From assembly GCF_008727815.1 (NCBI RefSeq), contig NZ_CP044230.1:1906001-1970000 (forward strand): 64,000 nucleotides of DNA, in the 5' to 3' direction. Shown here in pieces: positions 12,336-64,000 of the stretch. Numbering within the stretch: position 1 is the first letter of the stretch; the number at the start of each line of letters is the position of its first letter. The translations under genes were made by a program, and so were the position numbers. The stretch comes from Streptococcus sp. LPB0220 (GTDB lineage: Bacteria > Bacillota > Bacilli > Lactobacillales > Streptococcaceae). The notes under the pieces were generated by a model that had not been told where the DNA came from, did not search any database, and was given only the letters and a program-made list of their open reading frames with translations.

Positions 12336-12365
12336 GATATTCCCCTTACATTGTAGTCATTATTA

Positions 12366-12393
12366 ATTATACAGGAATACTACGTAGATTCAA
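12366..12393 (-). promoter_or_regulatory. Promoter of SRR adhesin 3
   Basis: TTGAAT - 16 bp - TATAAT on the minus strand, 30 bp before the ATG at 12335. Confidence 0.7.
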
Positions 12394-12483
12394 GTAATTT
12401 GCTACAAAAAACTTCTATATTATTGTTTAATTTTCAAATTTTTTTGTAACACATTAAAAACACCTCATTCTACTAGAAAAAAA

Positions 12484-12510
12484 GTGAATCTCCTATGAGA
12501 TTCACTCGAA
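12484..12510 (-). terminator. Terminator after SRR adhesin 2
   Basis: Stem GTGAATCTC/GAGATTCAC with a 4-nt loop, followed on the minus strand by TTTTTTT; 22 bp beyond the stop codon. Confidence 0.85.
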
Positions 12511-12531
12511 AAAATGATTTTTCCTACTAGA

Positions 12532-20229: not shown

Positions 20230-20258
20230 GTCCGCTCCTTAAATTTTAGATATCAAGT

Positions 20259-20287
20259 TATTATACATTATTTTTTCCCTAATGTAA
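20259..20287 (-). promoter_or_regulatory. Promoter of SRR adhesin 2
   Basis: TTACAT - 17 bp - TATAAT on the minus strand, 30 bp before the ATG, followed by AAGGAGCGGAC as ribosome site. Confidence 0.65.
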
Positions 20288-20324
20288 CTAATTAAGACCA
20301 TTTTCTGATACGAAAACAATACAC

Positions 20325-20352
20325 AAAAAGAGAACCCGGAGGTTCTCTTTTT
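20325..20352 (-). terminator. Terminator after SRR adhesin 1
   Basis: Perfect 12-bp stem AAAAAGAGAACC/GGTTCTCTTTTT with a 4-base loop, 57 bp beyond the stop codon. The arms end in A and T runs, so it could act in both directions. Confidence 0.85.
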
Positions 20353-20409
20353 GGATCCTTTTTCATTGACCACATACCTGAAATGATCGAATCAAATTAG
20401 GATAGAAGA

Positions 20410-33659: not shown

Positions 33660-33731
33660 TATTTGGTATAAAATGAACAAATAACACAGAAACGTTGATT
33701 TACTTATTTAGACTGTATGTGGGAGAAAAAA

Positions 33732-35834
33732 ATGAAACAAGAAAAAAATAGTGTCTCTGAAAAAGGGCACGGCTATTTCCGCAAACGCAACAAGACATTG
33801 GTCTCTATGATTACCCTTTTTGGAGCCTTGATGGTAAGCTCTGTTGCCCTGGCTGACGAGGTCAACACCAATCCGACTTCTGAGATCCCAGCAACCGCTC
33901 AACCAGCAGCAACCAACACCAGTACTCCTACCACTACTAGTGAGGAAGGTGCTACGACGGAAGCAACGTCTTCGCCATCGGAATCAACACCAACTGTTAC
34001 TGCCACTCAACCGGTCAGTGCAGCTCCAGCAACTACTTATAATACTCCAAAAATCACCAACGACGTCACCTTTGATAAAGCGACTTATAAAAGTGGGGAA
34101 GACATCCGCATTTCCATCAACAACTCTGAAGTAGTTTCTTCTGATGTCACTGTCTCTCATTTAAATCAGGTCATTTATGAAAAGAAAAACGTTGAAGGTA
34201 GCGAGCTGACAATTCCAAGTACGGTCTTTTCACCTAATGCTGGATTTATCGTTGATGTCCTTGGTAAGAAAGCAGATGGCTCCCAAGCCTTTCATAAGGC
34301 AGCGGGGCTTGCTGTTGAAGATGACTGGACGATCTACCCACGTTATGGGGTGGTTGCCGGCTCAAAAGACAATCACAACTCCATTACCAATGATCAGGTA
34401 GAAGGCTACAAGAATAGTATTGACCAATTGGCCAATATGCACATCAACAACTACTTCTTCTACGACGTTTACAATACACCTGCCAACCCATTCCCAGCAA
34501 ATGTTGAACGTTTCACTCAAGACTGGGCAACTTTCTTGATTCCAAATAGCGAAACAGATCCTGACAAGCGCAAGTCCTACTTACCTGTCATCGATACAGA
34601 AGCAGTCAAAGAGCTAGTGGCTCATGTCCATTCAACTGGTGCCAAAGCCATGCTGTATAACATGATTTACGCGGTTTCCCTCGAAGAAGGGGTCCCAAAT
34701 GAAGTGAAAAGTGCCATTGTTCGCAATCTACAAGACCATTTCAACTTTGGTAAAAAGGGTGATGTCACAGCGACTGATATCCAACAATTTCTCGATCCGG
34801 GTGATCCAAATTGGCAAAAATTTATCATTGAAGTCATGACCAAAGCCATGAAAGAAGGGAATTTTGATGGATGGCAAGGGGATACCATGGGCTCTAACTG
34901 GGTGGAAAAAGTCAGTGAACCTGGAAAAGGCTTCTCTTTGAGCGAACACTATCCAGAACTAGCCACAGCTGCAACAGAGGCCCTCAAAAAAGAAGGCTAT
35001 GACTTCATGATCAACGATATCTCTACTGGAGATGCTAATCGACTAGGTAAGACCAATGTCTCTGCACCTTATGCGGAAGTTTGGGGAGATAGCATTGCCT
35101 ATGACTCTACCTACCAAGCCTTGACGCGCCTTACCGAACGGATGCGTGATTTATACAAGGGGAAATCTCCTATCATCGCAGCTTATACCCATCGTGGTAA
35201 AAATGCATCAGCCCTCAGCAAAGACAACGAATTGCTGACAGATGCTATTATCGCAGCGAGCGGTGGTTACCATATGACAACTGCTGCCCTCAATACTTCT
35301 CAAGATGCTAAAGGTTTTGGGGTGATCCAAGCAGAATGGTATCTCAATCAAAACCTACCAGTCAATGCTGACTTTGCCAATACAGAATTCAACTACCAAG
35401 AATTCATCGTTGCTTACCAAGAGCTTCTCCGCGGGCGCGAAACCTTGGCGCATGATACTCGTCGGATTGTAGACAATACCAATGTACTGGTGAACGGCAA
35501 CTTCATCGGATCCAACCTGGATAATGCTGATGGAGTTCAACCTGGAACCGTTTATACCATTACAAAAGAAACCAAGACGGGTGATCGGATTGCTCACTTG
35601 ATCAATTTGGTCGGCATCACTGAAAACAAATGGAACAGCGCTGTGAATACAACCGAAAAATTGACCAATATTCAAGCTTTTGTTCCACTCGGAAAAATCA
35701 CAAAAGACCAGGCTGAACACGCCAGCATTTACTGGGCAACACCCGATGCTGTTGAAGGAAAATACAACATCAACCTCCGAGAAACAAGCGCAAATGTTTA
35801 TTATGACGGAGGGGCTTGCTATCGATGTTCCTAG
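33732..35834 (+). CDS. dexA: Dextranase (GH66), catalytic part up to the frameshift
   Basis: Secreted endo-alpha-1,6-glucanase. The start is ATG 33732 (MKQEKNSVSEKG), with GGGAG six bases before; the ATG at 33717 has no ribosome site. Signal peptide to about residue 42 (LMVSSVALADE), Thr/Pro/Ala-rich linker (43-105), then a GH66 domain. The GH66 nucleophile motif is DGWQGDTMG with Asp384, and the acid/base is probably Glu449 in APYAEVWG; these correspond closely to the S. mutans DexA residues. A one-base excess in GGGG (35811-35814) after residue 693 throws the frame to a stop at 35834, giving a ~700-aa product. All catalytic motifs precede the shift, so this product might be active but unanchored. 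Confidence 0.88.
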   Translation: MKQEKNSVSEKGHGYFRKRNKTLVSMITLFGALMVSSVALADEVNTNPTSEIPATAQPAATNTSTPTTTSEEGATTEATSSPSESTPTVTATQPVSAAPATTYNTPKITNDVTFDKATYKSGEDIRISINNSEVVSSDVTVSHLNQVIYEKKNVEGSELTIPSTVFSPNAGFIVDVLGKKADGSQAFHKAAGLAVEDDWTIYPRYGVVAGSKDNHNSITNDQVEGYKNSIDQLANMHINNYFFYDVYNTPANPFPANVERFTQDWATFLIPNSETDPDKRKSYLPVIDTEAVKELVAHVHSTGAKAMLYNMIYAVSLEEGVPNEVKSAIVRNLQDHFNFGKKGDVTATDIQQFLDPGDPNWQKFIIEVMTKAMKEGNFDGWQGDTMGSNWVEKVSEPGKGFSLSEHYPELATAATEALKKEGYDFMINDISTGDANRLGKTNVSAPYAEVWGDSIAYDSTYQALTRLTERMRDLYKGKSPIIAAYTHRGKNASALSKDNELLTDAIIAASGGYHMTTAALNTSQDAKGFGVIQAEWYLNQNLPVNADFANTEFNYQEFIVAYQELLRGRETLAHDTRRIVDNTNVLVNGNFIGSNLDNADGVQPGTVYTITKETKTGDRIAHLINLVGITENKWNSAVNTTEKLTNIQAFVPLGKITKDQAEHASIYWATPDAVEGKYNINLRETSANVYYDGGACYRCS

Positions 35835-37590
35835 TCTAGATGTATGGGATATGCTCTACGTCAAACTCAATGAAGCCGCTCATGTTCTTTATCAAGACGA
35901 AAACGGAGTTGAGCTCGAGCGTTCCAGTGACTTGGTTGGTCATACAGGTGAAAAGATCAACTACTCTACAAAAGAAACCATTGCCAACTATTTGAAGAAA
36001 GGCTATGAACTAATAGAGAATGGCTTCGATGCAGACGGACAACCAAACTTTGACCGCGACGCTACCAACACCAATGAAGATGGCGTTCAAGAGTTTATTG
36101 TCCGCTTGGCACCAAAAATTGTAGAATTTTCTGCAACACAGCCCATCCAAGCAGGTAAAGTTGTTCCAGGAGATAGCGAGGGGCGTGTCTATCCAACTCC
36201 TCTAGCTCCAGCTGGTCAAACAACGGCTGATCTGAATCATTTATCTGAAACAGTGATCCGTACAGTGACCTATGTAACAGAGGATCAGGATGGATCTAAC
36301 CGCCAGCCTGCAGGAATGGCCGATCAAACTGACAGCCTTCATTTCACTCGCAAGGGAACCATCAATTTGGTGACAGGCGAGACAAGTCTTGAAGACTGGA
36401 CAGCTCAAGATGGCACAAGCTTTGCAGCTCTTGAAAATCCCGTCAAAAAAGGCTATGTTGTCGTAGCAGAAGAATCGACTGATGCCGTCTCTTCTGATCT
36501 TACAAAAGCAGGAGAACATACTGGCATTCATGCTGATGCAGCAGACATCACAGATACGGTCATCTATCGCCCAGTCGGTGCCTATAGGATCAGCTATGCT
36601 ACTGGTAAAGAACCAGCCAATGCTCAAAAAGAGATCCCTTATCTAAATGATCTCACAAATCCAACCGCCATCGCGACTCCTACTACCATTCTTTCGTACG
36701 TGGAGGGATTAGAGCCAAAAGATGCTCGTGGACAAGTCTTAAACCTTGTGGATCCTCTTGACGAGACCAAAGGCTATCTTCTTCCAAGCCCTGATTCTCC
36801 AACAGCTGATACTGCTATTTCCTATGTCATCAGCAAAGGATCTGTCAGAGTACGATTCCTCACTGAGGGAGGCGACACTGATCTGCAAGAGGCGCAAGAC
36901 CTCGCTACAGAGGTAGATTTCGGTACCAAGTACACCAGTGAGGCCCCAACAGAAATCACAAAAGATGGTCGTATCTACCATCTAGTTGGACACCGTGCTG
37001 ATTCTGCTGATCCAAGTGGCACAGTCACTAAGGGGATGAAAACCGTCATCTATGATTACAAGTTAGCTACGGGAACGGTCATCGCGCGATTTGTCATCCA
37101 AGATACGAGCACTGAATTGCAACCAGAACTTGCTGTTGCAACGAATGTGGACAATGGAACTCATTACATCGCTAGCGCACCAGATGAGATCTCCTACGAC
37201 GGCCACATCTACGAACGGATCGGTGCAGCTGAACAAACTGGGAACGTAGAAGTGGGAACAACCATCTTGATCTTTGCCTACAAGGTCAAAGAAATCCCTA
37301 CTCCACAAACCTTCCCAGAAACAGGAATGAAAGAAATCGTTCATCCTAGTACTTCTCATACACAACCAGCAGTAATAAAAGAAATCCCATCTACTTCTAT
37401 AACAGAAGAGGATAAACCTCTTGAAACTACAAGCCAAACAGCGGAGCTCCCCGAAGCTGTTCCTAACACCCCTCAAGAAGGAACTCACCTACCTGTAACA
37501 GGTGAAGAGACCTCACACCTATCCTTACTTGGACTTGGTATCTTAGCAGGCCTTACCAGTCTTGTCGCTTTCAAAAAGAAACATGATTAG
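35815..37590 (+). pseudogene. dexA: Dextranase C-terminal part (out of frame): mucin-binding-type repeats and LPVTG anchor
   Basis: Continues the dextranase in the next frame from GLAIDVPSLDVWDML; removing one G from the run at 35811-35814 joins the two parts into a ~1285-aa protein. After the end of the GH66 region (about to residue 830 of the joined protein), repeats of Mub/MucBP type follow, e.g. ETVIRTVTYVTEDQDG and two VRVRFLTEGGDT/VIARFVIQDTST modules near 36840 and 37075. LPVTG at 37489-37503, a TM segment and KKKHD complete a sortase substrate. There is no decay elsewhere in this half, so the frameshift is recent, a sequencing error, or used for phase switching. Confidence 0.8.
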
Positions 37591-48892: not shown

Positions 48893-51439
48893 TTAATGGG
48901 TTCTACGTTTTTCGATGTAGTAGCCAAATCCAAAAACTGTCAAAAGAACTCCGCCTACCATCGTCGCGATTGAGATACTTTGTCCGGTTGATGGTAATTT
49001 TTTCTCACCTTTCTTCTCTTCAATTTTTGCTGCAGATTTATAAACTACACCATAAGTTGAGAAATGAGAGGTTGTAAATGTTACGGCTGACTTTTCTTCA
49101 TTTAGTTGGAATTGGAAGGATTCCAATTGACCATTTTCACCGATACCATAAACTGCTTCTACTTCTTTTTGCCCATTGACTGGAATGGTCACAACCGTTG
49201 GACTAATTTGATGTATAGGATTATTTTGGTTCGATAATTGAATATTATATGCCTTGTAATCTTTACCAGCTAGTTCTTTGACATCTTTCAAAACTTCAAC
49301 AAGAAGACTATAGCCACCTTGAGCAAAATCAGGGTTTTGCAAGACGATACCTGTTGCCTGGTCTACTAAAATATATGAATTTGTTGGTAAAACTGGGCGA
49401 CCAACGGTACTAACACTGTTACTATTTGTAGGAACAATAGTAGTTGTATTACTTGGTGTTGTTTCTTCCTTGCTTGGTTCTGTACTTGCTTCAGTGCTTG
49501 GCTTCGTTTCTTCCTTGCTCGGTTCTGTACTTGCTTCGGTGCTTGGCTTCGTTTCTTCCTTGCTTGGTTCTGTACTTGACTCAGTGCTTGGCTTCGTTTC
49601 TTCCTTGCTTGGTTCTGTACTTGACTCAGTGCTTGGCTTCGTTTCTTCCTTGCTTGGTTCTGTACTTGACTCTTTGCTTGGCTTCGTTTCTTCCTTGCTT
49701 GGTTCTGTACTTGACTCTGTGCTTGGCTTCGTTTCTTCCTTGCTTGGTTCTGTACTTGACTCTGTGCTTGGCTTCGTTTCTTCCTTGCTTGGTTCTGTAC
49801 TTGACTCTGTGCTTGGCTTTGTTTCTTCCTTGCTTGGCTCGGTACTTGATTCTGTTGGATCCTTGTAGTCATCTGGTAAAGATGCACGGTATGGATCATC
49901 TGTACGACCTGCTTCTTTAAGAGTTGCAGATAATTCAGACTCATATTGCTTGAATTGTTTGAAGAGACGTTCAGACCGAGCTAAAGCATCCTCAGTCACT
50001 TTATCTTCAACTGCTTTTGCTGCAGCTTCATCAGCTTTCAAGGCTGCATATTTGCTATCACTAACCTTCTGTTCAATGATCAATTGTTCTTCGAGAGCTT
50101 TCCAGTGATTTTGAATCGATTTTCCAAAGAGGTCTTGATTATTGATTGCCATCTGGTCAATATGCCATACTGTCCAATACCATGAATTCGGATCATAGGT
50201 AGCAGTTTGAGGTTTGAAAGCTTTATAGGTATCTTTTACATTTCCATAGAATGGAACATAAGGAGTATTCCGTGAAGGTCCCATTCCGAGCCATACAGTT
50301 CCACCAAATGATTTTGGAAGGTTTGGATTGATTTGGTAGACATGGGCATCGATGACGTTTTCGTTCCCTAAAGCATACTTGTATTGGTCTTTCCGAACAG
50401 TATCGTTGCTACCATTATCCCCTTGTTTCTTGACACCAATTTGATCATCTGGAACAAAACGACCATTTAAGTGTTCAAAACGGTTGCGTTGCAATGCAAA
50501 AGCATCTTCCAAAGTAAATTTCTTGTTTGGATCTGTTGGTGAGCGGAAGAGTTCATATTCATCATCTTCATAAGTCACTTTTGAGTTTGGATCCAAAAGA
50601 GTGATTCCTGCGTAAGTACGTGAACGGTCTCCTTCAGCATATTTTTCTGGTCCATAAGATTTAGCAATATGGAAGTTCCCATCTTTGTCTGTCTTGTAGT
50701 TACCAGATTCTTTAGCTACCTTTTCGACATCTTTCGAAGCGATCACGTTTTCCTTATCATTCAAATCCACATGACCAAGGTAGTAGGTATTTGCAAAGAC
50801 TGCATATTTGTCCTCTGGGACTTTTACCGCTACATATTGGTGTCCAGAAAGAATTTCCATATACCAAGTTTCATTTTGGTCTGCAAAAACGACAACATTC
50901 CCTTCTGCCGATCCTTTTTCTTCAATGACTTTAGCTAGGAATTCAACCCCTTCACGAGCAGACTTAACGCGTGGTAACACTACGTCCAACATAGCAGCTT
51001 CTGGAATTCCGTTTTCTGTCAACGGGTCAGTCTTCAAGACTTTTTTGTTTGGAATTGCTGTAACAGTTGAGGTCATAGAAACACCGGCTTCGTTAAATCC
51101 GTGTTCACCAAAAGCACCGTTACTACCATCTCCACGAGCAGAGTCATAAGTCGCTGTGTATTTCATTTCACTAGCAGCATGTGGATAGGTAAAACCATTG
51201 GATTCGTCTTCCAGTTGATCCCCTTCCTTATAATTCTTCGCATCAACAACCACATAATTCTTGTTGTGCTTGCCACCATTTGGATAGTAAGGGTAATCTT
51301 CTGTCCGACCAAAGAGAGTAGTCCCATCCTTGGTCAATTGCCGACCAATGATAAAGCCACAACAGGCTTGAACGGCTTGAACTGGTAGGAGCAAAAATGT
51401 CATTGCTACCAATGAAAGTTTAAACAACCATTTCTTCAT
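48893..51439 (-). CDS. C69-family dipeptidase, wall-anchored (LPSTG)
   Basis: 848 aa. N-terminal signal peptide, then ACCGFIIGR: peptidase family C69 uses an N-terminal Cys exposed by cleavage, and one of these two Cys should be it. The peptidase domain spans to about residue 560 (GRTEDYPYYPNGG; NETWYMEI..SGHQYVA). Then nine 15-residue repeats (TEPSKEETKPSTESS) make a stalk to the wall, followed by an extracellular beta domain (~700-815) and LPSTG, TM and KRRTH. Family members cleave dipeptides; the anchored, stalked form would feed amino acids at the cell surface or act on host peptides. Single gene between galU and the rhomboid operon. Confidence 0.88.
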   Translation of the reverse strand: MKKWLFKLSLVAMTFLLLPVQAVQACCGFIIGRQLTKDGTTLFGRTEDYPYYPNGGKHNKNYVVVDAKNYKEGDQLEDESNGFTYPHAASEMKYTATYDSARGDGSNGAFGEHGFNEAGVSMTSTVTAIPNKKVLKTDPLTENGIPEAAMLDVVLPRVKSAREGVEFLAKVIEEKGSAEGNVVVFADQNETWYMEILSGHQYVAVKVPEDKYAVFANTYYLGHVDLNDKENVIASKDVEKVAKESGNYKTDKDGNFHIAKSYGPEKYAEGDRSRTYAGITLLDPNSKVTYEDDEYELFRSPTDPNKKFTLEDAFALQRNRFEHLNGRFVPDDQIGVKKQGDNGSNDTVRKDQYKYALGNENVIDAHVYQINPNLPKSFGGTVWLGMGPSRNTPYVPFYGNVKDTYKAFKPQTATYDPNSWYWTVWHIDQMAINNQDLFGKSIQNHWKALEEQLIIEQKVSDSKYAALKADEAAAKAVEDKVTEDALARSERLFKQFKQYESELSATLKEAGRTDDPYRASLPDDYKDPTESSTEPSKEETKPSTESSTEPSKEETKPSTESSTEPSKEETKPSTESSTEPSKEETKPSKESSTEPSKEETKPSTESSTEPSKEETKPSTESSTEPSKEETKPSTEASTEPSKEETKPSTEASTEPSKEETTPSNTTTIVPTNSNSVSTVGRPVLPTNSYILVDQATGIVLQNPDFAQGGYSLLVEVLKDVKELAGKDYKAYNIQLSNQNNPIHQISPTVVTIPVNGQKEVEAVYGIGENGQLESFQFQLNEEKSAVTFTTSHFSTYGVVYKSAAKIEEKKGEKKLPSTGQSISIATMVGGVLLTVFGFGYYIEKRRTH
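49450..49858 (-). repeat. Nine 45-bp tandem repeats in the C69 gene
   Basis: Units encode TEPSKEETKPSTESS with few changes (one KESS, two TEAS, a last TTPS). Near-identical at DNA level, so prone to length change without frameshift. Confidence 0.92.
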
Positions 51440-54636: not shown

Positions 54637-55335
54637 TTACAAATTACGCAAGGCGTCTTCTAGTGCTGTTTTTTGTTGTGTTTTTTCATCGATTTCCTTG
54701 ATGATGCGAGCTGGGACACCAGCTACAACCACATTTTCAGGGACATCTTGAGTAACGATAGCTCCAGCGGCAACGACGGATCCGTTCCCTACTTGAACCC
54801 CTTCAATCACAACTGCATTGGCACCGACCAAGACATTGTCACCGATCCGAACAGGCTCAGCAGAAGCTGGCTCAATGACACCCGCAAGAACGGCACCTGC
54901 ACCGATGTGGCTGTTTTTACCAACTGTTGCACGACCACCAAGGATAGCCCCCATATCAATCATAGTTCCTGCACCGATTTCAGCACCGATATTGATGACA
55001 GCCCCCATCATCACGACAGCATTGTCTTCGATGGTCACTTGGTCACGGATGATAGCGCCTGGTTCGATACGCGCATTTAGATAGCGCTTATCAAGCAAGG
55101 GAACAGCTGAATTACGGCCATCTTGTTCGACCACATAATCCTTGTTCTCTGTCAAGTTGGCAAGAAGGGGCTCGATATCTTTCCAGTCACCGAACAACAC
55201 ATTACCTAGTTTTGTGACAGAAGCTGGAACAGCTGTTGCCAATTCCCCTTCAAAGGTAACTTTCACATTTGTTTTCTTTTCTGCATTTCCGATAAAAGCG
55301 ATAATTTCTTGAGCAGACATTTTTTGTGCTGTCAT
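54637..55335 (-). CDS. dapH: Tetrahydrodipicolinate N-acetyltransferase
   Basis: 232 aa. Acetylates tetrahydrodipicolinate in the acetyl branch of lysine/DAP synthesis. N-terminal domain ~1-80, then a left-handed beta-helix of hexapeptide repeats ([39 protein letters not shown]). The start is ATG 55335 ([10 protein letters not shown]), the usual length; MENL upstream adds four codons. Extended -10 promoter at 55371-55397. Confidence 0.95.
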
Positions 55336-55370
55336 AAGATTCTCCATTCATTTCAATTAAAGGTATCCAT

Positions 55371-55400: not shown

Positions 55401-56642
55401 CTAAGGCGACGTGGTTGTAGCCGAATCCTCCAGGCCTGTTATTTCACTGATGGTGCGATTGCTTCCAAAGTGAATCGTAACTAAACGCGCATCAGAAAGT
55501 TTATAGTGAAAGGTTAAAAAAGACTCTGAACTCATCATACTCGACCAAGAAACACGGCTAGGAATTCCTACGGTATTCACAAGCTCTGCATAGCTGGTTC
55601 CTATTTTAATATTGGCAAAATCCTCTCTGTTCAAACTGCCATTTTTATTGGCTAATCGCTCACTGTTTAAGTTCTCAAAATTAAGAGAAGATAGACGGCT
55701 ACTAATCATATTTGAAAGCAAAACAGATACAGAAGAAGGGGATCCTTCAGCCTCATAATCCAAGCTTGTCATGAAAGGACTGACACCACCTTCTTGGTAG
55801 GTTTCTTCCCCACTACTAGCCTTGCCCAGTACAGCTACCACATCCTGCGGAGACAGATAAGATGAAGAGGTACGGCCTTGATCCCCCTCACTTAAACCAG
55901 GAATCAGGGAAATCGCCTTCTCATAGGTCACTTGAAACTGAAATTCCCCCTCCGGAGCAATCAAGGTACTCGTACCACTCTTCAAGGTTTCCTTTCTGGT
56001 TCCATAAGACCGGCCAGTGCTTCCGTATTCACTAGTAGTAGAAGAAGGATGTTCCTCACTATGGATACCTCCTGAAGCTAGATAGGCAAATAATCCCAGC
56101 ATGGCCAATAATCCAAAAAAGGCTGCCAGCGAAGACCCTCCACTATTAGAGGAAGGAGAGTAGGTTTTCGCCCAATCCGATTGGGAGTCTAGTACCGTTT
56201 GTCTTGGTTCTGAATGCCTGCCTCCCCCTATTGAAGCCAGTTCAGCTTCTGAAATCAAGCGGCTCCCACCCTGGTGCTCTACTTTTTTCTCAGCTGAAGG
56301 AGACTGCCCTATTGTATCTTGTGCTGGTGTTTCTGACCTTGCTTCTTCTGTTAGTGGTGTAGCAAGAACGACCTGAGCTGATTCGTCTTCAGGTGTAGCA
56401 AATGAGCCTTCCTTTGGATCATACGATTCCTTCTTCACACCAATCGCTGGTTCGTCTTTTCGTTCCTCTTCTTGTTTCACCTCTTCCTGAAAAGCAGGGA
56501 CTTCTACCACTTCTGGCTCTTTTGTGAGCGTATCTTCTAGCTTCTCAGGACTTCCTTTTTCTAAGGGTGCTTCTTTCGGCTGGCCTTTCGAAAACCGACT
56601 CTGGTGCTCATTTCGTAGATGCGACCAGTCTTTATTTCCCAT
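55401..56642 (-). CDS. Paralogue 1 of a two-module membrane protein family, 413 aa
   Basis: Not a family I can name. A long acidic cytoplasmic-type N-terminus (1-120) ends in the motif HQGGSRLISEAELASIG (123-139), also found in paralogue 2. One TM segment (~171-190), then two extracellular modules. The first (about 220-315) contains EFQFQVTYEKAISLIPG and PQDVVAVLGKASSGE. The second (about 330-410) contains NKNGSLNREDFANIKIG and SYAELVNTVGIPSRVSW. The second resembles the SmpA/OmlA-BLIP pattern (small domain, K-x-G-x-x-Y ... G-x-P). The tail is IHFGSNRTISEIT. Same orientation as paralogues 2-4. Confidence 0.7.
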   Translation of the reverse strand: MGNKDWSHLRNEHQSRFSKGQPKEAPLEKGSPEKLEDTLTKEPEVVEVPAFQEEVKQEEERKDEPAIGVKKESYDPKEGSFATPEDESAQVVLATPLTEEARSETPAQDTIGQSPSAEKKVEHQGGSRLISEAELASIGGGRHSEPRQTVLDSQSDWAKTYSPSSNSGGSSLAAFFGLLAMLGLFAYLASGGIHSEEHPSSTTSEYGSTGRSYGTRKETLKSGTSTLIAPEGEFQFQVTYEKAISLIPGLSEGDQGRTSSSYLSPQDVVAVLGKASSGEETYQEGGVSPFMTSLDYEAEGSPSSVSVLLSNMISSRLSSLNFENLNSERLANKNGSLNREDFANIKIGTSYAELVNTVGIPSRVSWSSMMSSESFLTFHYKLSDARLVTIHFGSNRTISEITGLEDSATTTSP

Positions 56643-56681
56643 TGTCCTCTCCTTTTATTTAAAATGCTTCGGCTGATTTTT

Positions 56682-57587
56682 TTACTGTGCTGTAGATGTA
56701 GAGGAAGCTGGTGTGGTCGCTACCTCTTTCGATTTGATATCCTTGATGGTTTGCCGGCTATCAAAATGGATTTGAACCGTTTGAGAATCCGATAATCGAT
56801 AGGTAAAGGAAGGCGCTTCCCCGTAACCTAAAAGCCCAGATACATATATTTCATCCGGAATCCCTACCGTATTGAGTAGGTCCAAATAAGGCATTCCGAC
56901 CTTGATAGTGGCAAAATCGTCCTTCGTCAAGCTCCCATTCTTATTCGCAAATCGGTCACTTTTTAAGTGTTTCAAACTTAAAAGAGAGATCCTGTAAAAG
57001 GCACCTGTTTTTTCAAGAAGAACCTTCCCATCTGCATCCTTTGATTGGTAATCTAATGTCAGCAAAAAGGGACTGGAACTGCTATCACTATACGTTGCTT
57101 CCCCACTCCTCGCTTTACCTAATGCTGCAACGACATCTTGTGGGTCTACCGTCCCAAAAGAGGTCTTTTTTTCTTCCACTGCAAAATTAGGAATGAGAGA
57201 CATGGCCTTTTCATAGGTTGGCTGAAATTGAAATTCATTAGCTGAGGCGATATAAGAACTATTTTCACTGGTCAGATATTCCGTTCTGATACCATCACGT
57301 GATAAACCATTGATCCCCTCACTCGAAGAAGATGAAGAAGAGCTTTTATTAACTTCGTTTTGAAGCACAAACACAAAAGCCATTAACAAGGCGAACCACC
57401 CAAAAAATCGCAAAAGCGAACCAATCCCCTCTTTTGAGGAAGAAGGGGAAGACGCCATCGTATCTGAATGGCTTCTAGTATCCTGATGATTGTCCATCCC
57501 TATTGAAGCAAGGTCAGCCTCTGAAATCAAGCGGCTCCCACCCTGGTGAGAGGAAGCTGCCTTGATGTCTGTCCGTTGATCGTCCAA
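56682..57587 (-). CDS. Paralogue 2 of the two-module membrane protein family, 301 aa
   Basis: Short N-terminus with HQGGSRLISEADLASIG (14-30), TM ~57-76, a serine-rich spacer, then two modules: EFQFQPTYEKAMSLIP / DPQDVVAALGKARSGE, and NKNGSLTKDDFATIKVGMP / LDLLNTVGIPDEI. These match paralogue 1 almost word for word, so the two are recent duplicates, with paralogue 1 carrying an extra N-terminal domain. 40 bp upstream of paralogue 1 in the same direction; likely one operon with paralogues 3 and 4. Confidence 0.7.
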   Translation of the reverse strand: MDDQRTDIKAASSHQGGSRLISEADLASIGMDNHQDTRSHSDTMASSPSSSKEGIGSLLRFFGWFALLMAFVFVLQNEVNKSSSSSSSSEGINGLSRDGIRTEYLTSENSSYIASANEFQFQPTYEKAMSLIPNFAVEEKKTSFGTVDPQDVVAALGKARSGEATYSDSSSSPFLLTLDYQSKDADGKVLLEKTGAFYRISLLSLKHLKSDRFANKNGSLTKDDFATIKVGMPYLDLLNTVGIPDEIYVSGLLGYGEAPSFTYRLSDSQTVQIHFDSRQTIKDIKSKEVATTPASSTSTAQ

Positions 57588-57601
57588 TGATGTCTCCTTT
57601 C

Positions 57602-58300
57602 TTATACCAACACCAATTTCTTGGCTTTTTTCTTGAATTCCATCACCACTTCTGGCTGTCCTGGTAGCTGGTAAGTCGCGCGATAGCCCATTCCGCCATC
57701 TGGCATTTCCCCCCAGACCAATCGTTGGGGATTTCCTAGTTTCTTAATGAGCTGGGCGAATTCTGTACCTTTTTTCTCTTTTTCAGTAGTGATTTCTTTC
57801 TCACTGTTTGTCTTCTCTTTTACATCCAACAAATTCGTCGCATCCACCATTGTCAAGCGATACCCCTGGTCTTTTTCCTGTTCAAACCACAAGGTTACAC
57901 TTTTCTTGCCCTGATCGGTTTGCTTAGCCGCATAGGTTAAGACGAGAACCGTTTTATCCCCTTGGGCTGTCTTAGTGTAGCGAACTTTTTGAGCTTTTCC
58001 CCATTCCGTCACAACTGTTTCCAAGCGGGTTCCTGGTTGCTGACTCTGCTTAAGACGAACTTTCAAATTTGCCACAGCTTCGATGGTCCATTTAAACTGT
58101 TTGATTTCTTGTTCCTTGCTGACCAAATTCTTGTAATCCTTTGGCTGGAAATGAGTCAGGGTTTGGTCCTCCTTGGTATCGGTTCCTTGCTCTTGCACCT
58201 GGATGCTTGCAATCGCAAGTAACACTCCTAAAACAAAACACAAAAACGGCAGCAAGAGTTCTTTTCGATTCTTTTTCATCCACTCGATCATCTGCTTCAC
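57602..58300 (-). CDS. Paralogue 3 of the two-module membrane protein family, 232 aa
   Basis: Basic N-terminus, TM ~12-33 (LLLPFLCFVLGVLLAIASI), and two diverged modules. The first is IKQFKWTIEAVANL..GTRLETVVTEWGKAQKV with VTLWFEQEKDQGYRLT. The second is GTEFAQLIKKLGNPQRLVW ending in VVMEFKKKAKKLVLV. Recognised as a family member by the order 'F-W ... G-K-A' then 'G-N-P' and by TM topology. It lies 15 bp upstream of paralogue 2 (in the same direction) and overlaps paralogue 4 by 4 bp. Confidence 0.65.
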   Translation of the reverse strand: MKQMIEWMKKNRKELLLPFLCFVLGVLLAIASIQVQEQGTDTKEDQTLTHFQPKDYKNLVSKEQEIKQFKWTIEAVANLKVRLKQSQQPGTRLETVVTEWGKAQKVRYTKTAQGDKTVLVLTYAAKQTDQGKKSVTLWFEQEKDQGYRLTMVDATNLLDVKEKTNSEKEITTEKEKKGTEFAQLIKKLGNPQRLVWGEMPDGGMGYRATYQLPGQPEVVMEFKKKAKKLVLV

Positions 58301-59004
58301 CCCTTCTTCGCCAAACGATATTGACCACTCTGGTCACGTTCAAAGGTTAAAGAGACCAGTCCATCTGTCACCTGATAAGACAGGGCTAGGACTTGCTTGT
58401 CCTTTGCAGAGGTCAAACTAAGAGAATTGGGAAGACCTGATTTTTTCAAGACATCTTCTACTGCTGTCCCCTTTTCCTTTTTTCCATCTAGCGTCTGATA
58501 GCCTGTAAAATCTGCCAGTTTTAAGTTCTTTTTGCTCTGATAGTGAGCCGATTGGGGCGCAAAGCCTTGAATCGAGCTCAAATAAAAAGTATCATCCTGC
58601 TTTTGAAATTCTATGGTATAAGGATGAATCCCCTGCACAGGAGTCCCATAGCCTAGCTGGACTTGCGCTCCAAAACTCGTATCTTCTTGTGTAAAACTCG
58701 CTGCTTTTCCAATTTTTTTGACGAATGCAGATAAAGTCACCCAATTTTTTTGTGTCTTTCCTTCTCCCCTTGCAAGGTCCAATGACAACAAGTCTTCTAA
58801 AGCCGGCTCTTTGGAAGAAGACGCAACAAATTGCTGGCTGTCTTCTTGCATGCGAGACAAACTCAACAAGCGATCTTTGGGCAAGGTTTTCACTGGATGA
58901 ATCATAAACACCAAGCAAACACCAACCATAAAAGCCAGCAAAGCACTTGCAGCTTTTTGGAGGATCCGCTTATGATGTTCTATCCACTGTTTCAATTCTT
59001 CCAT
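58297..59004 (-). CDS. Paralogue 4 of the two-module membrane protein family, 235 aa
   Basis: TM ~15-37 (ALLAFMVGVCLVFMI). First module with NWVTLSAFVKKIGKAASF and YTIEFQKQDDTFYLSSI; second with GTAVEDVLKKSGLPNSLSL and LVSLTFERDQSGQYRLA. Module endings (F-x-x-x-x-x-G-x-Y-x-L) match those of paralogues 5-7. Stop overlaps the start of paralogue 3 (ATGA), so the two are coupled. Its 5' side is separated from paralogue 5 by a terminator. Confidence 0.65.
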   Translation of the reverse strand: MEELKQWIEHHKRILQKAASALLAFMVGVCLVFMIHPVKTLPKDRLLSLSRMQEDSQQFVASSSKEPALEDLLSLDLARGEGKTQKNWVTLSAFVKKIGKAASFTQEDTSFGAQVQLGYGTPVQGIHPYTIEFQKQDDTFYLSSIQGFAPQSAHYQSKKNLKLADFTGYQTLDGKKEKGTAVEDVLKKSGLPNSLSLTSAKDKQVLALSYQVTDGLVSLTFERDQSGQYRLAKKG

Positions 59005-59076
59005 CCTTCATGCTCTTTCTATTCAAACTCTTTCTATTGTATAGAAAATTAGCGTATTTGTCTCGTCTTATCCCAA

Positions 59077-59098
59077 AAAAGAGGCGCTTGCCTCTTTC
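59077..59098 (-). terminator. Terminator after paralogue 5
   Basis: Stem AAAGAGGC/GCCTCTTT, loop GCTT, followed on the minus strand by TTTTTTG; 13 bp beyond the stop at 59112. Confidence 0.8.
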
Positions 59099-59111
59099 TT
59101 GTCTGATCCTT

Positions 59112-60200
59112 TTAGTAGCTGTCTTTACTGCTCAAGAGAAAATCTCCATTTTCTTGGCGAATAAAGGTCAAATCCACGTAGTCCCCATTTTTCTTTTGGA
59201 AGTCCATGACCAATTCTATCTCGTCTGAATCATCAGATGAACTCACCGTCAGATTGACTGCATCACCGTATTTTTCTAAAAGCTCTTTGTAAGAGGTTCC
59301 TCCAGCACCGGTCTCACTATTTCCAACTTTGAATCCATCTGCAAAGTTGTCCTCAACCGTAAGATTTTTCCCAAATTGATTAAATTCAAATTTGACAAGC
59401 TGGAATTCTTTCCCTTTCTTAGAGTAAGTCGCTTTGACCTCTTTATTATAAGAGTTATCATCCCAAAATAATTTCAATTCTCCACTTTCAAATTGAACGG
59501 AGCTAGCTTTCCCATAAGCTTCAATCATTTCCTCAGGAGTCTCCCCAGCATCACTTCCTGTTAAAAACTGAAGTTGCTCGATATCAGACTGTTTCCAGCT
59601 AAAATCAACTTCCGCGTCTTCTGCGGTCAATTGATCCAAATCGATATTGGAAGACGAACCAGACTGGTTACCTGACCAAGAAGTCTGCTTTCTAGATGAT
59701 GACGTGCTAGGGCTAGCATGACCAATCAAATAGCCACTGACTCCACCGATAAGAAGCCCAACTAAAATCCCAAGGGCAAAACGAATCGCCTTCTTGTCCG
59801 CAGTATCCATCGGTCTTCCAACAGGAGAAAGAGGAGCTTGTGGAATAGGTGTCTCAGGAACAGGCACTGTTTGCGGACCAATTGGTTCAGCTGCCATATT
59901 TTGAGGAGCTTGAGGTGCAGGTTGGAATGGAGGAGTCGGTTGGGGAGCAGCAACTACATCCGGATGTTCTCCAACAGTTGCTTCATCCACCTTTGGAAGC
60001 TCCACCGTTTCTGAAATAACTGGCTCGTTTTCCTCTTCTTTCATTGCTTCCGTCTCCGTCACTGAAAGGCCACTAGCTTCTGGAACGACCAAGTCTTCGG
60101 CTTCTTCTTTTGGGACAAAGGCTGGCGCAGCCACATCAAATTGAGGCGCACCCTCTACGGGAGTATGTTTCATAAATTGTTCTTGATCTTTCTCGGACAT
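59112..60200 (-). CDS. Paralogue 5 of the two-module membrane protein family, 362 aa
   Basis: Acidic/proline-rich N-terminus (1-135), TM ~139-161 (ALGILVGLLIGGVSGYLIG), serine linker, then two modules. Module one: DFSWKQSDIEQLQFLTG, TPEEMIEAYGKASSVQF, LKLFWDDNSY. Module two: KVGNSETGAGGTSYKELLEKYG and YVDLTFIRQENGDFLLSS. The TM ending GGVSGY-IG is shared with paralogue 7. Single gene: terminator after it, and the polyserine LPKTG gene before it. Function unknown; extracellular sensing or ligand binding is a guess. Confidence 0.7.
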   Translation of the reverse strand: MSEKDQEQFMKHTPVEGAPQFDVAAPAFVPKEEAEDLVVPEASGLSVTETEAMKEEENEPVISETVELPKVDEATVGEHPDVVAAPQPTPPFQPAPQAPQNMAAEPIGPQTVPVPETPIPQAPLSPVGRPMDTADKKAIRFALGILVGLLIGGVSGYLIGHASPSTSSSRKQTSWSGNQSGSSSNIDLDQLTAEDAEVDFSWKQSDIEQLQFLTGSDAGETPEEMIEAYGKASSVQFESGELKLFWDDNSYNKEVKATYSKKGKEFQLVKFEFNQFGKNLTVEDNFADGFKVGNSETGAGGTSYKELLEKYGDAVNLTVSSSDDSDEIELVMDFQKKNGDYVDLTFIRQENGDFLLSSKDSY

Positions 60201-60276
60201 TTCGAATTCTCCTTTTTATTCTTCTCTTCTACTATAACATAAAACCAAGCAAGGACCAACTCCTGTCTGGATGGAC

Positions 60277-60307
60277 TAAAAAAGATCGGAGAGATATCCG
60301 ACCTTTT
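60277..60307 (-). terminator. Terminator of the polyserine LPKTG gene
   Basis: AAAAGGTCGGAT / TCCGATCTTTT stem with a 5-nt loop, then TTTAG on the minus strand; 12 bp beyond the stop. Confidence 0.75.
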
Positions 60308-60318
60308 AGATGCTTATC

Positions 60319-61206
60319 TTAAAATTTCTTGCGAAGGGAGACAATAGCAATCCCTGCAAGTGAGAGCAAGCCCAATGTTGCCAAAACGACACCTGTTTCT
60401 TGACCTGTTTTTGGCAATAAACGGCCAACTACAGATTTGCTTGAGTCGCTTGAATGTGAGGAAGAACTAGAAGAAGAGCTTGAGCTCGATGAAGAAGTTG
60501 AACTTGAGGAGCTTGAAGATGAGCTGCTTGAAGATGAGCTCGATGAGCTACTTGAGCTTGAAGACGAACTACTTGAGCTACTTGAACTAGAAGATGAGCT
60601 ACTTGAGCTTGAGGATGGGCTTGTTGTACTTGGTGAAGTCGACCCATCTGTACCAGGGCTTTTATAGCCTGCAATGAAATTACGATAAATTGGGTTGGAA
60701 CTTTCAAGTGAATCCACCATCAAGCGTCCTGATCCATCGTAAGCAAGGGACACTGTTACTTCCCCTTCTCCATTATCCAACTGTTTAAAGCGACCATCAT
60801 CTTTTGTAGTCTGACGAATGTAGAGTTTAACAGTTCCAGAATTCAGTCCAGAGAGATCCACATCATCAAATTCGATCGTCCCATCTGCTGTATTTTGCCC
60901 TTTAGCAACTGTCTCTTCTTCGCCACCTTCAGATTTGTAGATCAATGCAAATTGGTAGGCTCCCGCATCATGCGCACTTTCTTTCTTGCCTTCACGCGCT
61001 CCCACTACATCGACACGACCTGTTTTCAATTTCAAAGAAAGCTGATTCGATTCGAAACCTTCATATGTTGGTTTTTGAACAAGGTCTAGCTGACCATTTT
61101 TGTACTCATAAACCGCAGCTTTTGTATTCGCAGATACTGGTTGGGCAATTGCCATTCCACCAAGCATAGATGAAAGTAACAAGAATTTAGCCAAGTTCTT
61201 TTTCAT
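60319..61206 (-). CDS. Small LPKTG surface protein with polyserine stalk, 295 aa
   Basis: Signal peptide 1-27 (QPVSANTKAA), one compact beta domain (~30-185), then a stretch of about 65 serines (about 190-255) broken only by a few T and H, LPKTG (~264), TM and SLRKKF. The compact domain contains LVQKPTYEGF, DGTIEFDDVDLSGL and VKLYIRQTTKDDGRF, recalling the FctA/Spy0128 pilin type, though the E of the pilin isopeptide motif is not evident. Not an SRR adhesin: ordinary signal peptide, no KxYKxGKxW. Sits inside the paralogue array with its own promoter and terminator. Confidence 0.82.
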   Translation of the reverse strand: MKKNLAKFLLLSSMLGGMAIAQPVSANTKAAVYEYKNGQLDLVQKPTYEGFESNQLSLKLKTGRVDVVGAREGKKESAHDAGAYQFALIYKSEGGEEETVAKGQNTADGTIEFDDVDLSGLNSGTVKLYIRQTTKDDGRFKQLDNGEGEVTVSLAYDGSGRLMVDSLESSNPIYRNFIAGYKSPGTDGSTSPSTTSPSSSSSSSSSSSSSSSSSSSSSSSSSSSSSSSSSSSSSSSTSSSSSSSSSSSSSHSSDSSKSVVGRLLPKTGQETGVVLATLGLLSLAGIAIVSLRKKF

Positions 61207-61244
61207 ATTTTCATTCCTTTTTCAATTATTTTCATTCACCTTTC

Positions 61245-61273
61245 ATTTTATAATATGAAACAACAAATGACAA
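61245..61273 (-). promoter_or_regulatory. Promoter of the polyserine LPKTG gene
   Basis: TTGTCA - 17 bp - TAAAAT on the minus strand, about 40 bp before the ATG. The rest of the 61207-61546 spacer is AT-rich, with a terminator at its far end. Confidence 0.6.
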
Positions 61274-61463
61274 CTTTTATGTTCAAATAACTTTTTATAT
61301 TAAAGGATTTGAGTATAAAATACGTGTCTATAGCTATTGTCTAGCTAGAAACCCTGTATCATCAGTATTTTAGAAATGAGATTAGCAAATGATCGAAAAT
61401 AATAACTAGTTAGTGTTTTTATAATTGAATCTAAGGGGAAAGTTTATGAAATTACTTTACAAG

Positions 61464-61494
61464 TAAAAAAAAAACGACCTCTTGCGAAGTCGTT
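61464..61494 (-). terminator. Terminator after paralogue 6
   Basis: AACGAC/GTCGTT stem and a T run of ten on the minus strand. Shares the text AAAAACGACCTCTTGCGA with the terminator at 63467-63496. Confidence 0.75.
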
Positions 61495-61546
61495 CGGGTA
61501 CAAACGAGAATATATGGACCTTCCTTTTTAAAGACCGATTTCCTTT

Positions 61547-62362
61547 CTAATCTTCATCTCCTTTTAAAGCCAAACGATAATCCCCATCTGCTTGCTGGAT
61601 AAATTTTAATTTATATTCATCTTCATCTGATCCAGATGACTTAAAACGGATTTCCATTTCATTCGTAATGGCCTTAGTTTTATAGTCCTGGTCTGCTCTT
61701 ATCGAAATAGAGGATGGGGTATTGCTACTAAGCACTTCTTTATAAGATATTCCATCCTTCCCTGTTTTGGGATCTCCTACTTTCAATTTATCATAATCAT
61801 CGGTCGCCATTGGATTGGCATCCGCTGTGTCATAATCTTCTGAGAAATATAGATTGCGTAGATAATAATGACCATCTATTTTCATAAAGGTCAGATTCAT
61901 CTCGTTAGCGGTCTTATAATCGGTGCTTTCTTCATCTGTATCGTCCCTCTCGAGTTTGCCCCATTCTAACTCAACAGTTGTCCCATTAAATGAACCTTTT
62001 AAAGCTTTCCCATACTTCTTTACGACCTCTTCGATAGACATCGCATCCTCTTTGTCATCGTAGGTAGCGAATTTCAAGTCTCCGAGATTTGAAATATCCC
62101 AATCAAATGCTGTCTCTTTTGGGTCTATATAGCGAGAAGATATATCGCGTTTTGAGACTGTACTATCTGCAGTGGTATGTAAACGGGGATAAGCTTTCTT
62201 GGTTACGGCATTCACACCAAAAGAATGGCCAATAATAAGACCAATCACTAATCCTAAAACAATTGACCCAATCACACATCCAATGAACAAGCCCTTTCCG
62301 CTTTTTTGAGGGCCAGGATTTACTGGTACACCAAAGGGTACCTGTGTTTGATTTATACTCAT
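61547..62362 (-). CDS. Paralogue 6 of the two-module membrane protein family, 271 aa
   Basis: Short N-terminus, TM ~24-49 (FIGCVIGSIVLGLVIGLIIG), then modules. Module one: AFDWDISNLGDLKFATY, SIEEVVKKYGKALKGSF, TVELEWGKL, MKIDGHYYLRNL. Module two: KVGDPKTGKDGISYKEVL and YKLKFIQQADGDYRLALKG. Begins 18 bp after paralogue 7 and is probably cotranscribed with it. The start MSINQTQVPFG has AGGAGGATAGAAGAGAG before it. Confidence 0.7.
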   Translation of the reverse strand: MSINQTQVPFGVPVNPGPQKSGKGLFIGCVIGSIVLGLVIGLIIGHSFGVNAVTKKAYPRLHTTADSTVSKRDISSRYIDPKETAFDWDISNLGDLKFATYDDKEDAMSIEEVVKKYGKALKGSFNGTTVELEWGKLERDDTDEESTDYKTANEMNLTFMKIDGHYYLRNLYFSEDYDTADANPMATDDYDKLKVGDPKTGKDGISYKEVLSSNTPSSISIRADQDYKTKAITNEMEIRFKSSGSDEDEYKLKFIQQADGDYRLALKGDED

Positions 62363-62380
62363 CTCTCTTCTATCCTCCTC

Positions 62381-63322
62381 TTAATTTAGTTCCGCACCAA
62401 TATAGCGAAATTCTCCATCAGGCTGTGCTAAAAATTTCAAAACTTTAAAATCCCCATCAACCTCACAGAGTACTGTAGCCACTACACGTGTAGACTTAAA
62501 TGTTTCCCCATTGGCAGTTAGTTTGCGCTCTGTCCCAATTTCGACGGTTTTTCGATGTTTTTTCAAAAACTCAGATAATCTTGTCCCACCTTGCCCTGTC
62601 TGCTTGTTTCCTTTTTTCAGACTTCGAAATTCCTTTTCAGTCAAGGCGCGATTGCTCGAGGCATCATCGCTATCATCATCATCCTCTGGATTTTTATGCT
62701 CATACAATTCATCTAATTCCGTCACGGACACACTTTTTAAATAATAATTGCCATCGACTTCGTCAAATCTCATTCTCAAATTCTGATGTTCAGTAGCCTT
62801 TGAGTCATTCCAAGTAAACTCCATTGCATTCTTTTTATATTCAACACTGGATGCTAACCCATAGACTTCTACAATCTGATCTGCTGTCAAACCATAACCT
62901 TCCCGATTGGTGTAACTCAACAAGCCAAGATCCTTGAAAGTCCATGTGAAAATGACCTTTTCTTTATCCGTTACAAAACCTGCTTTTGTTTCATTTGCTT
63001 CGGTCTTTGCACGTTCTAAACGTTTAAATCGTTGCGACTCCTTACTTGTTTGAGAGGATTGTCCCCAAATATATCCGCTCACACCACCGAAAAGCCCACC
63101 AATCACAAGCGCTAAAAGTGAAAATAGTACTAATTTTTTCCACTTGTGCTTTGGCTTAGTTGGATAGGACCACTGAGGCGGAAGCATTTGTGGATTTGTT
63201 TCTTCAAATGGATAAGCAGGGCCCTGCATTTGAACTCCTCTCACCTGTCCTTCTCCTTGTGGTGTCTCTTGCATCTGTGGCTCTTCCGGCACTGAAAAAG
63301 GCTGTTTATCTTCTGTAGTCAT
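62381..63322 (-). CDS. Paralogue 7 of the two-module membrane protein family, 313 aa
   Basis: The start is ATG 63322 (MTTEDKQPFSV), with AAGGAGAGAG before it; a reading from 63502 would run through a terminator. Pro/Gln-rich N-terminus, TM ~63-88 (LLALVIGGLFGGVSGYIWG). Modules: FTWTFKDLGLLSYT / DQIVEVYGLASSVEYK / FDEVDGNYYLKSV, and KKGNKQTGQGGTRLSEFLKKH / GDFKVLKFLAQPDGEFRY. First gene of a pair with paralogue 6. Confidence 0.7.
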   Translation of the reverse strand: MTTEDKQPFSVPEEPQMQETPQGEGQVRGVQMQGPAYPFEETNPQMLPPQWSYPTKPKHKWKKLVLFSLLALVIGGLFGGVSGYIWGQSSQTSKESQRFKRLERAKTEANETKAGFVTDKEKVIFTWTFKDLGLLSYTNREGYGLTADQIVEVYGLASSVEYKKNAMEFTWNDSKATEHQNLRMRFDEVDGNYYLKSVSVTELDELYEHKNPEDDDDSDDASSNRALTEKEFRSLKKGNKQTGQGGTRLSEFLKKHRKTVEIGTERKLTANGETFKSTRVVATVLCEVDGDFKVLKFLAQPDGEFRYIGAELN

Positions 63323-63466
63323 ACTCTCTCCTTTTGATTCTCTTTGTCTCATTTGATGATCACAGTGAGTGAAAATCATTTGATGAACAAAGTATAAAAA
63401 TGCTCCTTCTACTATATCATAAATCTCCTGATGGCGCCAATTCATCACTAAATGGGGAAATAGGCA

Positions 63467-63496
63467 CAAAAAAACGACCTCTTGCGAGATCGTTTT
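63467..63496 (-). terminator. Terminator at the end of paralogue 8
   Basis: AAACGA.CTC/GAG.TCGTTT stem with a T run; overlaps the restored stop codon of paralogue 8 (63495-63497). Near-duplicate of the terminator at 61464-61494. Confidence 0.75.
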
Positions 63497-64000
63497 ATCC
63501 AAATGCTGTTACATTCTCAAGTCGGTATTCCCCTTGCTGATTCTTTTTAAATGATAAGGTTATTTTTCTTTGATCAGTTGTAAAGTATAGGATATATATA
63601 ACTATTTTCCCCTTCATACAGGTTGTTACTGTAACTGTTCTTAGGGATTCCAAACTGGCTTATAGCCTCCATTAACCCAATCCCTTCCTGACCACTTTTA
63701 GGCAAATAAGAACGATATTCTTCTAAAGTTTTATTCGCCTTGCCCGCTTGAGCTTTAGTAACTTCAAGATAGACACGCTCGACACGACTTTTTCCTTCAA
63801 ACTCATTAATAATAATTTTGAAAAAACCCTGTTGGTCAGAAAGCTTATAATAAAAGGTTACCCGTTCTTTCCCCGAGGAATCATAATCAAGTAAACCTGC
63901 AAACGCCTTTCCATATTTCTCAATTATTTCTGAAGGCGTTAGCGTTTGCTTCTTTGTAGCATCCATTAGCTCAAAGACTTCATCAACTGAAAAAACTCTT
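63495..64000 (-). pseudogene. Paralogue 8 of the two-module family, partial at window edge and frameshifted near its 3' end
   Basis: Runs in from beyond base 64000. Visible: DEVFELMDATKKQ, SEIIEKYGKAFAGLLDY (module one) and PKSGQEGIGLMEAISQFGIPK (module two). The open frame stops at 63574 after YIYPILYN, but family C-termini end in 'F-x-x-x-x-x-G-(E/D)-Y/F-R/L-L', and exactly that (FKKNQQGEYRLENVTAFG, stop 63495) follows in another frame. Adding one TA to the TATATATAT run at about 63593-63602 joins them. Either a recent lesion, a sequencing slip, or a switchable repeat. Confidence 0.7.

Follow-up and report, generated by a model that had tools for sequence, protein, structure and literature searches.

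A tandem array of predicted membrane-tethered BLIP-type proteins between pgi and dapD in a Streptococcus parasanguinis-like genome

What is a run of related membrane proteins doing between pgi and dapD in a streptococcal chromosome? The question is raised by a stretch of 64,000 nucleotides from the oral Streptococcus sp. LPB0220, here called the window (bases 1906001-1970000 of a 2.13 Mb single-contig genome). Several named S. parasanguinis contigs carry a dapD 100% identical to the one in this genome, which we therefore take as S. parasanguinis or a close relative; the names pgi and dapD are those we presume from the sequences themselves. Ten related genes (g1 to g10) and one LPKTG polyserine gene (gS) fill the interval between the two, on the minus strand, in the order g10, g9, g8, g7, g6, gS, g5, g4, g3, g2, g1 from pgi to dapD. 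The window covers seven complete members and part of g8, and the array continues past the window end to pgi. The first-pass annotation had correctly seen the run of related genes and the polyserine gene among them, and its count of eight should be read as seven complete genes plus a cut eighth, out of ten. Two of the ten are broken: g10 is split by a single in-frame TAA, and g8 is frame-shifted near its end, so that the tail of its second module sits in another frame. In a whole-genome search the family profile matched the ten array places and a fragment that is the displaced end of g8; outside the array it gave a single weak match (E 0.005). As far as this profile sees, the array is the full complement of the family in the genome.

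The family was gathered by an iterated profile search over 2947 open reading frames (ORFs) of fetched loci, which brought together all the array genes and gave 55 non-redundant members. Alignment A1 holds 45 of these, nine from this genome and 36 others; the ten left out are eight close copies or fragments and the two pieces of g10. By blastp, g5, g6, g7, g9 and g10 are strongly linked (best E about 1e-61), g1 is linked to g2, and g3, g4 and g8 are linked weakly. The window array members pass no Pfam or NCBIfam cut-off (nine window ORFs scanned). Two copies of a module had been proposed for each protein, and this is borne out: leave-one-out profiles, from which the gene itself and all rows more than 35% identical to it had been removed, detected both the N-module (E 3e-18 to 4e-6) and the C-module (1.5e-19 to 9e-4) in all nine genes from g1 to g9. 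Compared end to end, the N and C profiles match with 98.9% probability, against 0.7% for a reversed control and at most 0.4% for 20 column-permuted controls. On this profile evidence the two half-modules are homologous to each other.

Structure models were made for two proteins, g6 and g1. Both contain two modules, each with two helices followed by four antiparallel strands, as in a BLIP-like fold; the remaining members are assigned to it by sequence only. In VIA both models match BLIP-type structures well above the rows below, and 3d4e of S. mutans is the best match of both. The same structure is the sole match under E 0.05 when the family profile is run against PDB sequences (E 4e-5). Foldseek is weaker than VIA for g6, giving a best BLIP match at E 4.7e-3 and none below 1e-3, with 3d4e not among the best 50 listed. 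A tandem BLIP-type head, closest to 3d4e, is well supported by prediction, in agreement with the BLIP-like fold guessed in the first-pass annotation. SmpA/OmlA (BamE) has a single module, and the array proteins depart from it in this respect.

Each protein has one hydrophobic segment, called as a transmembrane (TM) helix from hydropathy alone. The residues before it number 170, 56, 14, 17, 140, 25, 63, 49 and 26 in g1 to g9. The plan proposed earlier stands as regards the single hydrophobic segment and the two modules; its variable acidic or Pro-rich cytoplasmic part does not hold for every member, the pre-TM parts of g3, g4, g6 and g9 being short and not acidic. A loose tail pattern around L-R-x2-H-x2-K-F is fitted by 8 of the 45 members, and GRKxQREW is common to 4 of them. 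The linker from the hydrophobic segment to the N-module has a median of 39.5 residues (range 22-103, n = 40 A1 members with an N-module). Linkers this short keep the head under the cell wall. The predicted topology, which is well supported, thus runs from an N-terminal cytoplasmic tail through a single membrane helix and a short linker to a head of two modules. A role as surface receptors, suggested at first, fits badly, because the short linkers place the modules near the membrane, and ordinary surface receptors were rejected on this ground. The companion suggestion of inhibitors is in keeping with the BLIP fold class.

The array differs between strains. Loci anchored on dapD were taken as the best 80 of 435 relatives, several of which extend only slightly upstream, and family genes occur upstream of dapD in at least 14 of the 80: 12 of S. 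parasanguinis type and two of the S. australis kind (L017, L019). By S. parasanguinis type we mean the 12 array loci with a dapD 99-100% identical (L002-L011, L013 and L038) and this genome, making 13; L012 (labelled S. vestibularis), with a dapD 99% identical, has other genes upstream and no array, and was excluded. All 13 contain g5, g3 and a g1-type gene, and 12 contain an intact g4; in L013 (Streptococcus sp. HSISM1) a partly masked antisense ORF interrupts g4 (L013:6412-8217). By comparison, g6 and g7 are present in four of the 13, and g2 is whole in six and split in one. The smallest array is pgi-g5-g4-g3-g1-dapD, found in L003, L005 and L038. Short g1-type genes occur six times, five having the start of g2 and the remainder of g1, with the switch at a shared HQGGSRLISEADLASIG segment; the ORF of the sixth (L009) begins further inside. 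The array is therefore accessory, with a shared four-gene core and other members that come and go, partly via recombination between neighbours. As a separate observation, the pgi-dapD array of another species encloses a two-component system and a secreted PepSY protein (L095:7612-10353).

As gene-wide averages, the ratios of nonsynonymous to synonymous substitution rates (dN/dS) of whole g1 to g5 are 0.16-0.42, and the module-wide averages are 0.12-0.35. Seven neighbours (dapD and six others, the six with 5-13 sequences each) give 0.01-0.19; the g6 and g7 sequences of the four strains that have them differ too little for a judgement. On average the modules are under purifying selection, looser than that on most neighbours, and diversifying selection is absent from the gene- and module-wide averages of g1 to g5. 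In the C-module tree (FastTree, about 90 residues, omitting L096:3936-4709 and g8, with seven near-identical phage sequences dropped by hand), g4, g6 and g7 each group with genes of other species, g9 falls outside the g6 group, and g1 pairs with g2. For these reasons most of the paralogues look older than the species, and the earlier idea of local expansion is mostly not borne out, the g1-g2 pair being the exception.

Profile A1 has a match at E 1e-5 in 92 of the 147 Streptococcus genomes sampled and none at that level in the other 55; this genome has 10, copy numbers being drawn from at most 15 scored candidates per genome. Across the order, matches occur in 23 of 198 genomes and six of 53 genera, with E 9e-15 to 7e-6 in the five other genera. 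Single queries detect fewer Streptococcus genomes at E 1e-3 (60 of 147 for g5 and 17 of 147 for g1). Other arrays lie near pyrimidine genes with a LysR gene (L098, L106 and L108) or near a purA-like gene (L111), these neighbour names being presumed except for the LysR of L098. Genes for proteins with two TM segments and one module occur singly at other sites.

The array appears to be transcribed in several units. Hairpins with T-runs are found at the g8/g7, g6/gS, gS/g5 and g5/g4 boundaries, and none was found inside g4-g3-g2-g1, where g4 and g3 overlap and the g3-g2 and g2-g1 gaps are 14 and 39 nt. This agrees with the units 7-6, 5 and 4-3-2-1 drawn in the first-pass annotation. Promoter and terminator scans were overall no better than shuffles, and the terminators rest on the combination of intergenic hairpin and T-run. 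The dapD gene follows g1 after 53 nt, with a TATAAT between them seen by eye. The 158-nt leader before g7 has a second copy, 96% identical, before g10 (L001:4221-4379), and there are no further copies in the genome. Despite these near-identical leaders, the coding identity is 61% for g7/g10 and 56% for g6/g9. The upstream segments look as though they have been exchanged or conserved while the proteins differ, giving the same control with different heads. A recent local duplication of g7-g6 to give g10-g9 was rejected on the same figures and on the branching of g9 outside the g6 group. In both leaders a promoter-like site is followed downstream by the 11-bp direct repeat TCATCAAATGA, possibly an operator.

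What might such proteins do? We suggest that the sheet of each tethered tandem head clasps a partner protein between membrane and wall, binding being expected from the fold. The heads would sit where foreign proteins reach the membrane and would block them, with phage DNA injection as the first candidate, and the array would be kept as an accessory, lineage-shuffled set. We propose this exclusion of incoming foreign proteins, phage injection first, tentatively as the leading possibility, because relatives in phages occupy a slot used for superinfection exclusion and because of the pattern of gain and loss of the array. The relatives in question are one-module proteins carried by temperate Streptococcus and Lactococcus phages. 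Among the 45 members, 31 match phrog_11491 and 18 match phrog_6148, a moron labelled 'beta-lactamase-inhibitor protein BLIP'. The one-module member L112:5337-5996 finds 21 phage records, of which 17 were examined, the remaining four being duplicates for PLgT-1 and BK5-T. The gene directly adjoins the integrase in 16 of the 17, lying on its repressor side with the same orientation (in Javan252, one of the 16, the neighbour is annotated 'mobile element protein'); in the exception, Javan318, the record ends at the gene. All 16 translated phage proteins (Javan233 is outside this set) contain the C-module at E 2e-10 or better, these values referring to a 16-sequence database and to a profile that includes close chromosomal one-module relatives. 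Some genes of the integrase-repressor interval have been shown to be superinfection-exclusion genes, according to the available part of PMC7693887.

Several observations weigh against this proposal. The 17 records include siblings and fall into about nine distinct groups by our own grouping. The phage link to the array is by cousins, in that one-module proteins of phages and chromosomes intermingle in a single group of the module tree (support 0.946), separate from the array genes. A tblastn search with g6 gave no phage or plasmid match, and direct copies of g6 of either kind were accordingly rejected. The array itself lies between pgi and dapD and not in the repressor-integrase gap. Dub35A orf3, cloned by others, gave no phage resistance in the portion of PMC7693887 available; the product of this gene, taken here as Dub35A_003, has the module and no predicted membrane helix. 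PADLOC returned six one-member matches (best E 5e-4), mostly to TM effectors, none convincing. Finally, the core genes present throughout the 13 loci, with intact g4 in all except one, and the module dN/dS of 0.12-0.35 would fit a stable partner of the cell's own equally well. A more specific version of the proposal is that the tandem, shuffled, tethered inhibitors each act against a membrane-side step of a different phage class, the one-module cousins in phages being superinfection-exclusion genes. This is conceivable and rather doubtful; if true, the BLIP fold would be a phage-injection blocker. A literature search, made through incomplete listings with few subscription journals, gave no publication on this family or on the BLIP fold in phage exclusion, and none on DUF3862.

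Nearly as likely as exclusion is the regulation of the cell's own wall enzymes, in which the head or the membrane helix would bind a penicillin-binding protein (PBP) or hydrolase and tune envelope growth, as CopD and TseB do. The plan of CopD is the same, and in the available text of PMC10653890 it interacts with PBP1a and PBP2b and its loss widens cells. The core genes common to the 13 loci and the purifying selection are in line with such a role, and the L-R-x2-H-x2-K-F tail pattern could dock a partner. Against this, a TseB-type protein without any detectable sequence relationship to the array is encoded separately in the genome, and the 55 Streptococcus genomes of 147 without a match at E 1e-5 would be odd for a wall regulator.

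Immunity against secreted antibacterial toxins of competitors, in the manner of TipC, is unlikely. TipC shares the topology, a crescent shape and multiple copies (PMC6193138, in the part available), and recombination between tandem copies, as seen here for g2 and g1, is described for type VII secretion system immunity genes (accessible text of PMC9484751). However, no toxin-like gene was seen by eye beside the array (the neighbours were not scanned for toxins), the genome has its own TipC elsewhere, at an LXG-like locus, with no sequence link to the array, and the module averages show no diversification. Least probable are sensors or surface receptors whose heads bind a ligand and whose tails signal: the two recurring cytoplasmic patterns and the two-component system and PepSY protein inside the G045 pgi-dapD array speak for them, and against them stand the tails of only 14 and 17 residues in g3 and g4, the short linkers that hold the head under the wall, and the lack of a signalling domain in the nine window ORFs or among 25 of the 60 families listed for the 45 members.

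Overall, a protective role is somewhat more likely than a housekeeping role, because the array is accessory and shuffled and its loss is tolerated, features common to the exclusion and toxin-immunity explanations. The family brings a known inhibitor fold together with membrane tethering, with tandem arrays and with the lysogeny module of phages. If phage exclusion is true, the array would add a kind of defence that has no convincing counterpart in the PADLOC library used, and an unassigned gene of several temperate streptococcal and lactococcal phages would be explained; if wall-enzyme regulation is true, the array would be a multi-copy parallel to CopD.

Table 1. Features of the array and its flanks. 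Positions are those of the window unless prefixed by L001; N and C are profile matches to the two modules.
Feature	Position	Strand	Description
dapD (presumed name)	54637..55347	-	downstream flank, non-member
g1	55401..56642	-	413 aa; 170-residue cytoplasmic part, TM, two predicted BLIP-type modules; N 55659-55946, C 55464-55625
g2	56682..57587	-	301 aa; 43% identity to g1; N 56949-57236, C 56757-56930
g3	57602..58300	-	232 aa; 14-residue cytoplasmic part, TM; N 57827-58102, C 57626-57793; GTG start; 4-nt overlap with g4
g4	58297..59004	-	235 aa; 17-residue cytoplasmic part, TM; N 58534-58800, C 58303-58497
g5/g4 gap	59079..59096	-	terminator-like hairpin
g5	59112..60200	-	362 aa; 140-residue acidic Pro-rich cytoplasmic part, TM; N 59373-59612, C 59115-59339
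gS/g5 gap	60282..60305	-	terminator-like hairpin
gS	60319..61206	-	295 aa; signal-peptide-like start, small domain, polyserine (57 Ser in 62 residues), LPKTG anchor; outside module family
g6/gS gap	61472..61495	-	terminator-like hairpin
g6	61547..62362	-	271 aa; TM; N 61838-62119, C 61559-61804
g7	62381..63322	-	313 aa counted from ATG; TM; N 62705-62959, C 62555-62644
g7-g6 leader	63323..63480	-	putative promoter/leader of g7-g6 operon
g8/g7 gap	63464..63497	-	terminator-like hairpin
g8	63574..64000	-	cut by window end; full ORF L001:1574-2386, 270 aa
pgi (presumed name)	L001:4405-5754		other flank of array

Some other features of the region may be recorded. A radical SAM protein and an ABC transporter encoded near pgi (L001:7111-10145) may form a small cluster for peptide modification; in L005 and L008 the radical SAM ORF has a length of just 92 aa. 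Elsewhere in the window, three tandem genes (1513, 2565 and 1604 aa) at 7794-25224 encode serine-rich-repeat LPXTG proteins with a KxYKxGKxW-type start, which we take to be adhesins, beside presumed glycosyltransferase- and SecY2-like genes. Two overlapping ORFs in different frames at 33717-37590 (705 and 636 aa) look like one frame-shifted gene, presumably dextranase-like. An ORF at 48893-51439, which we take to be a C69-type peptidase, has an LPXTG-type anchor and a long ETKPSTESSTEPSKE repeat.

The nearest known structure, 3d4e ('putative beta-lactamase inhibitor protein'), resembles the array proteins in its tandem BLIP-type head, and differs in having been solved as a soluble head, whereas the array proteins have a membrane helix and a variable tail. 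We take 3d4e to belong to DUF3862 (PF12978). The array does not reach the cut-off of this family (25 bits): g1, the sole window ORF to touch it, scores 14 bits and the best in the genome is 14.7, and 7 of the 45 members match at E 0.1 or better (best 6e-5). BLIP of Streptomyces (PF07467) has the same two-domain arrangement as the array models. The precomputed PF07467 assignment is carried by 7 of 120 listed relatives of g1 (501 were found), and a PF07467 search of this genome gave no match, its control likewise matching nowhere. BLIP is a secreted protein, whereas the array proteins are tethered. Its targets are class A beta-lactamases, as the available text of PMC2954215 states.

Among phage proteins the natural comparison is with Ltp and the lactococcal Sie proteins, which act at the membrane face, and whose slot in the lysogeny module is the one filled by the phage relatives of the array family. 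The repeat domain of Ltp, a lipoprotein, works through an interaction with the tape measure protein (PMC3952083, as far as available); the array, in contrast, is chromosomal.

CopD/Spr1400 and TseB share with the array one TM helix and two BLIP-like superfamily domains, and CopD has a 16-residue tail (both from the accessible part of PMC10653890). The domains of CopD and TseB are PepSY, unlike those of the array. TseB and PepSY models have no match at E 1 in the nine window ORFs and do not appear among the families listed for the 45 members (25 of 60 and 25 of 31). The TseB-type protein of this genome (L162:1495-1992) scores 38.2 bits with PF17881 (cut-off 26.5) and 34.7 with the NCBIfam TseB model (cut-off 200), and its hhalign comparison with the array gives 0.3%, no detectable link in a modest test with a single sequence on one side.

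TipC likewise has one TM helix, a crescent-shaped head in the inner wall zone and multiple tandem copies, and its authors found no strong fold match for TipC2, in the portion of PMC6193138 available. Its sequence family differs from that of the array: NF033863 (TipC) has no match at E 1 in the nine window ORFs, and none among 25 of the 31 families listed for the 45 members. TipC structures are absent from the listed VIA rows of both models, an absence that shows nothing by itself. The genome's own TipC (L131:2919-3515; 153.5 bits with NF033863, cut-off 30) gives 0.2% against the array in hhalign, no sequence link in a modest test with single sequences. The locus around it (L131:379-3515) is an LXG-like toxin operon with two small helper-like genes and the TipC immunity gene; the LXG-like protein has a sub-threshold LXG match (17.3 bits, cut-off 26.5) and no Pfam or NCBIfam match at E 0.01. 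Membership of the array in either CopD/TseB or TipC was rejected on these results. With no sequence relation detected between it and the TseB-type and TipC proteins of the genome, the array seems to represent a third class of one-TM binder in the inner wall zone, beside those two.

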